Source of the DNA: Chloroflexota bacterium
GTDB taxonomy: Bacteria; Chloroflexota; Dehalococcoidia; Tepidiformales; Tepidiformaceae
Direction of reading: 5' to 3'
Assembly (NCBI GenBank): GCA_026702615.1
Contig: JAPPBY010000033.1
Location: 186,001 to 250,000 of the forward strand
DNA length: 64,000 nt
In this document: positions 32,467-35,244 of the stretch, in pieces
Position numbering within the stretch: position 1 is the first letter of the stretch
How the letters are laid out: the number at the start of each line of letters is the position of its first letter
Translations under genes and position numbers: made by a program
Notes under the pieces: model-generated
The model's input: only the letters and a program-made list of their open reading frames with translations
The model's database searches: none
What the model was told of the DNA's origin: nothing

Positions 32467-34521
32467 GTGATCGTGGCGCAGCTCGCGATTCCGCTCGCAG
32501 CGGTGGTGGCGGTCGTCTTCGCCACCTGGTTCGCCCTCGACATCCTCCTGCGGACGCGCCCCGGCGAGGGCGTGTCCGCGGCTGCGGAGCGCACCCGAGA
32601 ACTGGGCGGCTCATACATCTGGCGGTTCGTCGTCCTCAGCGTGACGCTGGGGCTGGCTGGCGGCGCAGGGGTCGGCGCGGCGGTGGGGGCGTATCGCGAC
32701 GGCGTCGAGTCGGGCGCAGTCGCGGGGCTGGCGGTGCTGGCAGGGGCGCTGGGGGCGGCAGCGACGGCGGCGGCAGGACTGGCGCTGGGTCAGCGCGCGA
32801 GCGAACGGGCGGCGACGGCCGCGGACCGGACGCTGCGCCAGGCGCTCGCGATCGTGTTGTGGGCAGGCACGGCGCCGGCACTGGCGGGCGGGGCGCTGGC
32901 GGTGGCGGGGGTCGCGGGGCTCTACGGCATCGCGACGCGCTTCGCGGACATCGCGAGCGGCGAGGCGGCGTTCCTCGTGCTCGGGGCAGGGGCCGGGGCG
33001 GCACTGACGTCGCTGGCAGCGCGGCTGCTCGCGGCGAGCGACGACCCTGACGAAGACGAAGGGCCTGAGTCGGAGACCGTCGAAGCGGCGGGGAGCGCGG
33101 CAGGCGGTGCGGACGTGGTGGCGCTGATGGCGGCGGGCGGCGGGGCCGGGCTCGTGCTGGGGGCGCCGATGGCGCAACTCGGCGATGACCTGGTCTGGAT
33201 CGTGACGCCACTGGTGGTGATGGCGCTGGGGGTGGCCGCAGCGACCATCGCGGGGATCACGCTCCCGTTCTGGACGCGGGCGATGCGGAACGCGGGGCGG
33301 TCGGTGGTGGCGGGGTACGCGATCACGGCGGTCGTGGGCGGGGCGCTGGCGTTCCTCGCGCCGGTTGCGATGCTGGAGGAGGGGCGGTGGTGGTTCGCGG
33401 GCGCCGGACTCCTGGGAGCGGGGTTGAGCGCGCTGCTGTTCGTGACGGGGCGGGCGATCATCGGAGACGGGTCGGGCTACCGGGGGACGGGAGCGGCCTT
33501 CACGCTGCTGACGGGAGTCGGTCTGGTGGCGGCGTTCATCTTCGGGTGGCAGGTCGAGATCGAGGGAGTCAGCTCGACGGCGACGGCGCTGTACGGGGTG
33601 GCGATGGCGGCGGCGGGGGCGCTCGCGCTGGCCCCGGCGGCGGTCGCGATCCGCGCGTTCGGGACGGGGGCGGCGAACGCGGTCGCGCTGGCGGAGCGCG
33701 CCCGCGAGGCCGTAGAGCCGGCCGAGGGTGAGGACGAGGGGCCGGCGGTCATGCCGCTCGGACCGCTGAGGGCGACGGCGCAGCGAGCGCTGGCGCCGGC
33801 GTGGTGCCACGGCATCGGCTGGACAGCGCTCGTGGGGGCGGTCCTGGCAGGGGCGCTGCTGCTGGCCGTGCGAGCGGAGATCGGGAACGTGGCCGCGAGC
33901 GACGTGCCCCGCTACGTGCAGATCGCGGCGGAGCTCGGGGTCGTGCCCGACTTCGAGGACATCGAGGCGCAGGCGGCCTACGACCTGGCCTCCTACCGCG
34001 ACCTGCTCGACCGGCACGACATTCACGCGGCGGACGCGCCGCAGCTCATGCTCGCGGGGGAAGCGGAGACGCGACGCCTGCTCGAGCTGCGCGCGGAACA
34101 AGGGCGGCTGGACGCGGGCACCAAGGCCATCGCGGGCGGACCCCTGCCATTCCCCTCGCTCCCGCCGCTGCGGCTCGACCGCCTGGTGGGAGTAGGAGCG
34201 CTGGTGGCGCTGACTGGATTGCTGGCCGCGATCGGGCTGGCGGCGGCAGGGCGGCGGGCGGCGGCGGCTCGCGCGCTGGGGGCCGTGCTCGCGGCGGCGG
34301 CGGTTCCGCTGGCGGGAGCGCTGATCGTGAGGGCGGCCGTCGGGGGGAACGCGGGCTGGGAGATGGCGGCGGGGGCGGCCCTGGCAGGGCTGGTCGCGGG
34401 GCTGGCGCTGGTGGCGAGGGGAGGCGGCAAGCAGGGGGTCGCGGCGGAGACGGGGCTCTCTCTGGCGGTGTGGCTGGCGGCGGCGGGAGCGGCGATCGCG
34501 CCCGCGCTGGTGGCCGCCTAG
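32467..34521 (+). CDS. Polytopic membrane protein, probable catalytically inactive pyrophosphatase paralogue
   Basis: A 684-residue, Ala/Gly-rich membrane protein with roughly 14-16 helices and nearly the length of the pyrophosphatase upstream. Several stretches align in order with it: ALGQRASERAATAADRTLRQ against AVRANVRTAAKAQEGLNPAL, GGADVVALMAAGGG (about 213) against GADLFESYVGS, LRATAQRALAPAWCHGIG against QLGNTTAATGKGFAIG, and ALGAVLAAAAVPLAGALIV against EMIIPGLLAVAVPIFVGAV. The pyrophosphate- and metal-binding loops are missing or replaced by an acidic linker (DDPDEDEGPESE). It may be an accessory or regulatory subunit. GTG start after AGAGGAGG, probably the same operon. Confidence 0.72.
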   Translation: MIVAQLAIPLAAVVAVVFATWFALDILLRTRPGEGVSAAAERTRELGGSYIWRFVVLSVTLGLAGGAGVGAAVGAYRDGVESGAVAGLAVLAGALGAAATAAAGLALGQRASERAATAADRTLRQALAIVLWAGTAPALAGGALAVAGVAGLYGIATRFADIASGEAAFLVLGAGAGAALTSLAARLLAASDDPDEDEGPESETVEAAGSAAGGADVVALMAAGGGAGLVLGAPMAQLGDDLVWIVTPLVVMALGVAAATIAGITLPFWTRAMRNAGRSVVAGYAITAVVGGALAFLAPVAMLEEGRWWFAGAGLLGAGLSALLFVTGRAIIGDGSGYRGTGAAFTLLTGVGLVAAFIFGWQVEIEGVSSTATALYGVAMAAAGALALAPAAVAIRAFGTGAANAVALAERAREAVEPAEGEDEGPAVMPLGPLRATAQRALAPAWCHGIGWTALVGAVLAGALLLAVRAEIGNVAASDVPRYVQIAAELGVVPDFEDIEAQAAYDLASYRDLLDRHDIHAADAPQLMLAGEAETRRLLELRAEQGRLDAGTKAIAGGPLPFPSLPPLRLDRLVGVGALVALTGLLAAIGLAAAGRRAAAARALGAVLAAAAVPLAGALIVRAAVGGNAGWEMAAGAALAGLVAGLALVARGGGKQGVAAETGLSLAVWLAAAGAAIAPALVAA

Positions 34522-34604: not shown

Positions 34605-34634
34605 TTGACAGGCCGATCTCGGGGCTGCTAGCTT
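34605..34634 (+). promoter_or_regulatory. Promoter of the c-di-AMP riboswitch transcript
   Basis: A consensus -35 TTGACA at 34605-34610 and, 18 bases on, a weak -10 TAGCTT at 34629-34634. The surrounding 34522-34604 stretch is AT-richer than the average here and holds no gene. The riboswitch starts just downstream. Confidence 0.6.
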
Positions 34635-34640
34635 CGAGGG

Positions 34641-34800
34641 GCTCCGCAAGGAGCGTGCGCTCGGTGAAAACCGAAACCTGCAGAGTGCGCCACAGTGGCG
34701 CAGCGGGGGAACCACCATCAGGGGTGAATGGGACCTCTCCAGTCCCTAGGGCAACCTTCCGCCCGAACCCGTCAGCTAACCCCGTATGCACTTGGAAGGC
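34641..34800 (+). ncRNA. Cyclic di-AMP riboswitch (ydaO/yuaA class)
   Basis: The leader carries the conserved blocks of the ydaO-type aptamer in order: GGTGAAAACCGAAACC, GCGGGGGAACCACC, AGGGGTGAATGGGACC, and CCGAACCCGTCAGCTAACCC. These surround the two pseudo-symmetric c-di-AMP sites. A perfect seven-pair hairpin (34804-34820, GCGAGCA/TGCTCGC) follows and could be part of the expression platform, though it has no U-tract. The controlled gene is the small zinc-ribbon protein at 34869. This class normally turns expression off when c-di-AMP is high. Confidence 0.92.
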
Positions 34801-34868
34801 CTGGCGAGCAGGCTGCTCGCTTCGAGGCCGAGAAGATCTTGCCTCACGGAACCCAGGAGAAGTTCCCC

Positions 34869-35087
34869 ATGCCTGCCTTGCAAGAGGCCCCACCCAAGAC
34901 GTGCCCGAAGTGCAGCGGCTCCATCATCGTGGAGCGCGACTGGCACGGCACCTACGGCAGCTGCATCATGTGCGGCTACGTGCACGAAGTGCTGACGCGC
35001 CCGCCGATCGATCTCGCTGCCGAGGAAGCGGCTCTGCCGCAGCGCCAGCGCCGGCGCCAGCCGTCGCACGGCAAGCTGCGCCTGTAG
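34869..35087 (+). CDS. Small zinc-ribbon protein under c-di-AMP riboswitch control
   Basis: A 72-residue protein with two CxxC knuckles, CPKC near residue 12 and CIMC near residue 32, separated by VERDWHGTYGS, forming one zinc ribbon. The C-terminal 35 residues are basic (PQRQRRRQPSHGKLRL) and may bind nucleic acid or an acidic partner. ATG 34869 has AGGAG 11 bases upstream. Its message begins with the riboswitch and ends at a strong terminator, so it is the sole target. The function is unknown; control by c-di-AMP hints at cell-wall, K+ or osmotic homeostasis, or at a translation or transcription factor for it. Confidence 0.85.
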   Translation: MPALQEAPPKTCPKCSGSIIVERDWHGTYGSCIMCGYVHEVLTRPPIDLAAEEAALPQRQRRRQPSHGKLRL

Positions 35088-35115
35088 CCGCTCGCCTCAC
35101 GTTCTGGACCTGAAG

Positions 35116-35138
35116 CCCCCGCCTGTGCGGGGGTTTCT
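35116..35138 (+). terminator. Rho-independent terminator after the zinc-ribbon gene
   Basis: Stem CCCCCGC (35116-35122), loop CTGT, stem GCGGGGG (35127-35133), then TTTCTC. It ends the riboswitch transcript. Confidence 0.9.
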
Positions 35139-35244
35139 CATTGCCCGTCCTCGGTCGTGGCCGGCGACGGGTATTTTCCTGCCTCCAGGAGGGTCCGCAT
35201 GGGACCGTCGGGACGGATTCCCCTATCCTCACAGGGACACCGGC

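Follow-up and report, generated by a model that had tools for sequence, protein, structure and literature searches.

A c-di-AMP riboswitch dedicated to a small zinc-ribbon protein in Dehalococcoidia

The signal molecule cyclic di-AMP is widespread among bacteria, and its best-known roles are the control of K+ and the cell wall in Firmicutes and Actinobacteria. Its riboswitches (RF00379; ydaO/kimA-type) have listed targets that comprise K+ and amino-acid transporters together with cell-wall and osmotic-shock proteins (PMC7266159, PMC9960051), and those published are OFF switches, acting through termination in B. subtilis and through translation in C. glutamicum (PMC9960051). The C. glutamicum nlpC and S. 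coelicolor rpfA riboswitches are, like the one described here, c-di-AMP leaders outside Firmicutes, and nlpC is controlled at translation, as we propose for the genus under study; their targets are cell-wall related, whereas the target described here is a zinc ribbon (PMC9960051).

We analyzed a stretch of 64,000 nucleotides (the window) from a 2.87-Mb draft genome of Tepidiformaceae (Dehalococcoidia), in which a sequence-only reading had described a c-di-AMP riboswitch devoted to a 72-residue protein and proposed that protein as a new effector. All sequence elements that it named are present (Table 1), and the evidence for them is stronger than it had stated. The riboswitch upstream of the 72-codon gene belongs to the known class RF00379. 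Its dedicated target appears to be new, as judged from reviews and the open-access literature searched, in which we found neither a zinc-protein target, nor a wider set of small zinc proteins, nor any mention of c-di-AMP together with Dehalococcoidia.

Table 1. Features of the locus, in window coordinates
Feature	Position	Strand	Remark
Rex/CRP-like dyad TTGTGA-N6-TCCCAA	34582..34599	+	family-conserved as TTGTGA-N6-TC(G/C)CAA
-35 hexamer TTGACA	34605..34610	+	sequence and position kept across family loci
-10-like hexamer TAGCTT (weak)	34629..34634	+	TAGCGT or TAGCTT at the same position in relatives
c-di-AMP (ydaO-type) riboswitch aptamer, RF00379	34669..34804	+	cmscan, E 6e-19
Aptamer loop CCTTCC	34755..34760	+	5' pseudoknot partner; pairs with 34794-34799
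Tail GGAAGG	34794..34799	+	3' pseudoknot partner; pairs with the CCTTCC loop
Leader hairpin GGCCTGGCGAGC..GCTCGCTTCGAGGCC	34798..34829	+	counterpart of the relatives' terminator hairpin; U-tract replaced by GAGAAGATCTTG
Small hairpin GGAAC/GTTCC	34848..34866	+	arms kept in the genus leaders compared
Shine-Dalgarno AGGAG	34855-34859		in the loop of the small hairpin
72-codon zinc-ribbon gene	34869..35087	+	ATG 34869, stop 35085-35087; near-invariant tail QRRRQPSHGKLRL
Intrinsic terminator CCCCCGC-CTGT-GCGGGGG TTTCTC	35116..35139	+	same position in most genus copies

The riboswitch and its pairing with the gene

The whole window was searched with cmscan, and RF00379 was the sole Rfam match at the gathering threshold, covering the full length of the model (positions 1-134 of 134) at 87.1 bits against a gathering score of 38, which bears out the proposed ydaO-type aptamer. 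Across 105 loci, pairing between the aptamer loop and the tail was stronger within a locus than with swapped tails (9.75 vs 8.22, sd 0.15). This is what a pseudoknot would predict, and the Rfam consensus sequence likewise points to one. The full-length match, the conserved core, the tail pseudoknot and, in many relatives, a terminator output are shared with described members of the class; the small zinc-ribbon target is unlike those listed for it.

Orthologs of the 72-residue protein were found in 35 of 38 family genomes, with best copies about 89-100% identical, and full-length orthologs in 110 of 294 genomes of the class, where identity outside the family is 48-70%. Near-identical orthologs are encoded on a Tepidiformaceae chromosome and in other Dehalococcoidia assemblies, and the complete genome of Tepidiforma flava YIM 72310 carries one that is 94% identical. 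Tepidiforma strains are cultivated thermophiles (PMC10284905). With an ortholog in cultivated T. flava, both the binding partner and control by c-di-AMP are directly testable. In 33 of the 35 family genomes the riboswitch lies immediately 5' of the gene and in the same orientation; in other families 64 of 80 loci have it directly 5', an arrangement that persists down to a protein identity of 48-58%. It is retained at the gene in 97 of the 115 genomes examined, over a deep range, and in 13 genomes the RF00379 match at this gene is the only one. This survey of relatives strongly supports a riboswitch devoted to the small zinc protein. Of the riboswitch targets found in the class, this uncharacterized protein, about 67-74 residues long with a tail that barely differs from family to family, is the most conserved, and the pairing points to a new branch of the bacterial response to salt or potassium stress.

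The diadenylate cyclase family PF02457 was matched in 106 of the 110 ortholog-bearing genomes vs 20 of the 184 others (raw counts, with shared ancestry ignored), and the four ortholog-bearing genomes with no match are incomplete drafts. The window's genome encodes this enzyme once (profile search, E 1.1e-41). Zinc-ribbon relatives without the tail occur in other Dehalococcoidia and other Chloroflexota. Their ribbon is similar, but the match stops before QRRRQPSHGKLRL (E 1e-10 to 1e-6), and no Rfam-detectable riboswitch lies within 1.5 kb on either side at 17 such loci.

Among the 16 of 80 other-family loci without the riboswitch, 12 belong to one family group (f21). Since the gene persists without it in this group and in a few others, the role of the protein is not tied to c-di-AMP alone. 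Members of f21 (L138-L149) have kept the zinc protein and mostly also the promoter dyad described below, and have lost the riboswitch at this gene; most of their genomes keep an RF00379 riboswitch elsewhere, and most members give a weaker match to diadenylate cyclase.

Promoter, leader and transcription unit

The gene's own promoter, as the sequence-only reading had it, was recovered with a clear -35 hexamer and a weak -10 element 18 nt downstream, in an arrangement kept across the family. A generic promoter and terminator scan missed both this promoter and the terminator after the gene, owing to the weak -10 and to a T-tail that reads TTTCTC. An 18-bp dyad sits just 5' of the -35 in Tepidiformaceae. 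In other families a related dyad ending in TCACAA lies just after the -10, including at loci without the riboswitch, and a dyad score of at least 9 of 12 was obtained in 103 of 114 promoters vs 3% of shuffled windows. The published Rex operator is an 18-bp TTGTGAA-N4-TTCACAA, also written TTGTGAAW4TTCACAA (PMC2883068). The promoter half-sites are TTGTGA and TC[A/G/C]CAA at 6-nt spacing, and most genomes examined carry a Rex gene. The dyad is absent from 4 of 8 genomes without detected Rex vs 7 of 97 with Rex (Fisher p 0.004, kinship ignored). These data are suggestive of a Rex site and equally of a CRP-type site, as the two share the same core; an exact-pattern genome scan for the dyad returned few sites, and Rex and CRP sites are inseparable by this sequence.

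It is conceivable, though quite improbable in our estimate, that a Rex or CRP-family factor acting at the dyad is the dominant regulator and the riboswitch a minor, dispensable layer. Consistent with this are the presence of the dyad at loci without the riboswitch (f21 and f50), its occurrence in 90 of 97 promoters of Rex genomes and its loss in half of the eight lacking detected Rex; the retention of the riboswitch at the gene over a deep range of genomes argues against it, and the sequence fits either regulator. A small marine genome of the family (G017) carries two copies of the zinc protein (C34 and C56; 89% and 81% identical to that of the window); Rex was not detected in it, and the dyad is absent at the copy examined (L063).

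Between aptamer and start codon, many family relatives have a textbook leader terminator (GGCCTGGCGAGCAGGTAGCTCGCTTCGAGGTC-TTTTTTT), and a run of at least five T residues was found in 37 of 107 leaders, where shuffles give 2.8 on average. The window's genus keeps the leader hairpin, but its U-tract is degenerate (GAGAAGATCTTG), leaving no convincing leader terminator. Since the U-tract has decayed and the Shine-Dalgarno sequence lies inside a small hairpin, translational control is more likely in this genus. By analogy with the published OFF switches, the gene would be on when c-di-AMP is low.

Downstream of the gene, 20 of 35 family loci and 34 of 124 loci overall have a hairpin with a T-rich tail (shuffles, 0.9 of 124), and the terminator that had been read at the window's locus is present there. 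The 72-codon gene seems to be the only one in its transcription unit. The description of the gene as the riboswitch's sole target holds for this transcription unit; at the level of the genome it needs amending, as two further c-di-AMP riboswitches are present. We consider it very unlikely that the zinc gene is instead the leader gene of a longer riboswitch operon with ABM-domain, response regulator or flagellar genes. Of 122 loci, 48 do have a same-strand ABM-like gene 3' of the zinc gene and 42 a response regulator, but the terminator stands directly 3' of the gene in those 20 family loci, and the downstream genes vary by family and are mostly missing from the window's genus.

The neighbors in this genus are a pyrophosphatase and a ferredoxin, the latter 3' of the gene; other family members carry the ABM-domain, response regulator and flagellar genes just mentioned, and elsewhere LexA or transporters are found (some of these names come from reading the sequence). 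Attention had been drawn to an adjacent pyrophosphatase pair with a main enzyme of K+-dependent type. The pair is adjacent, and the first copy (862 bits to PF03030) carries the motif GNTTAATGKG in its Ala form, which we take to be the K+-dependent type; the second copy is degenerate, and the adjacency is confined to part of one family. Because the neighbors differ between genomes, the pyrophosphatase link is probably incidental. The sequence-only interpretation is supported in part; it had overlooked the conserved dyad in the promoter, the degenerate state of the expression platform and the several other small double-CxxC proteins under such control. The second pyrophosphatase-like gene (32467-34521) is diverged, matches PF03030 at 30 bits and is probably an inactive paralog.

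The zinc-ribbon protein and its proposed action

Across 595 pairwise comparisons of the 35 family copies, differences at the three codon positions number 2178/201/15777, and codon changes comprise 14647 synonymous vs 2175 non-synonymous. Change is thus mostly synonymous, with the tail kept through synonymous codons, and the 72-codon gene is therefore truly coding. The product has the two CxxC knuckles (CPKC and CIMC) and the basic tail that had been attributed to it. Its Cys4 ribbon is joined through an acidic linker to a cationic C-terminal tail. Orthologs are about 67-74 residues long; their C-termini are QRRRQPSHGKLRL or a slight variant, and the preceding linker is variable in length and sequence. 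An acidic linker followed by a cationic tail is suggestive of a docking peptide, and the protein probably binds zinc.

The predicted model (AlphaFold) is good for residues of about 11-40 only (pLDDT 81-88), which form a three-strand ribbon. Foldseek returned RNA polymerase III RPC10 ribbons as best matches (E 0.04) and none with E <0.001, and searches of Pfam, NCBIfam and PDB gave sub-threshold zinc-ribbon matches only. The TFIIB zinc ribbon (PF08271) reached 21 bits against a cut-off of 29, and the LysW carrier (PF21344) 15 bits against a cut-off of 27. For ZifS (TTHA0897), a small zinc-finger protein listed by Foldseek, a literature lookup gave unrelated matches only. The TFIIB, RPC10, RPB9 and TFS ribbons have similar Cys4 spacing and are the best matches by sequence and fold, yet weak ones (E 0.04-0.1, under family cut-offs), and the cationic tail of the window's protein has no counterpart in the alignments. 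The description of the protein as nucleic-acid-binding-like draws on the zinc ribbon and the invariant basic tail, the RNA-polymerase/TFIIB likeness being weak and non-specific (E about 0.04-0.1). Small ribbons of the Cys4 kind resemble many things.

LysW is likewise a small Cys4 ribbon of similar length, with an acidic C-terminal motif; the window's protein has a basic tail in its place. It is unlikely, in our assessment, that the zinc protein is a metal- or enzyme-linked accessory (a LysW-like carrier, an assembly factor or a partner of an envelope or osmolyte enzyme) with a tail that anchors it to another protein. Such a role would fit the weak matches to Zn_ribbon_LysW (E 0.02) and PDB 3wwl (E 0.48), as well as the metabolic nature of other riboswitch targets in the class, namely KamA-type radical SAM enzymes and trehalose-phosphate synthases. 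Against it, no neighboring enzyme is conserved with the zinc protein across families, the LysW match falls under the Pfam cut-off, and the tail is strongly basic.

The reading that we favor, at somewhat better than even probability, is that of a monocistronic and doubly controlled stress gene, with an OFF riboswitch and a dyad input, encoding a zinc-ribbon adaptor that docks on nucleic acid or its machinery. The regulation of the gene is well supported; the action of the protein is inferred. High c-di-AMP, a state that is K+ replete in studied bacteria, would keep expression of the zinc protein low, and a fall in c-di-AMP would allow it to be made. The output stage would be an intrinsic terminator directly after the aptamer in most relatives of the family and, more likely, translational in the window's genus, with the Rex/CRP-like dyad serving as a putative second input of redox or cAMP type. 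The cationic tail may then dock on nucleic acid, the ribosome or RNA polymerase, and the docked adaptor could adjust gene expression under osmotic or K+ stress. We hold with moderate confidence that the protein is an adaptor whose target is nucleic acid or a machine that works on it, and the proposal that it is a second-messenger effector is reasonable, with the effector putative.

Small zinc proteins and other riboswitch targets in the class

A second double-CxxC family of 57-62 residues, with the pattern MLR...PWWRR...RCPEC...RYCPGCH..PEWR[YF]G, has the riboswitch 5' in each of the 21 family genomes where a clear copy was found (L262-L282; for example G003:C19:35865-36035). It is confined to Tepidiformaceae within the class sample and absent from the window's genus. 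Yet other small double-CxxC proteins of several types (60-149 residues) stand behind 16 of 90 further riboswitch sites (L305, L309, L310, L316, L318, L319, L323, L331, L333, L346, L349, L352, L355, L362, L367 and L380). On the opposite strand the count is 1 of 90, and among 900 shuffles it is 0. These 90 sites are the top of a ranked list that includes close relatives and lies nearly all outside the family, so the proportions are no more than indicative.

Remaining targets among the 90 sites include KamA-like enzymes (11), which perhaps make a beta-amino-acid osmolyte, trehalose-phosphate synthases (11) and a DedA-like membrane protein (13; named from reading the sequence), so classical osmotic targets are present too. 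We tentatively propose, at rather less than even probability, that c-di-AMP in Dehalococcoidia acts largely via small zinc-ribbon proteins, with several apparently unrelated double-CxxC families of 57-149 residues, each behind its own riboswitch, through which osmotic or K+ status would come to govern transcription or translation. Within this proposed set the window's protein is the most conserved member, and if small zinc proteins are a general output of c-di-AMP, they would constitute a new effector class and a new output arm of c-di-AMP signaling.

The window's genome has three c-di-AMP riboswitches, that of the window included. The third precedes an 87-residue protein (L003 1164-1427, minus strand) with zero Pfam or NCBIfam matches, and the second precedes a KamA-family radical SAM enzyme (L002 1742-3115).
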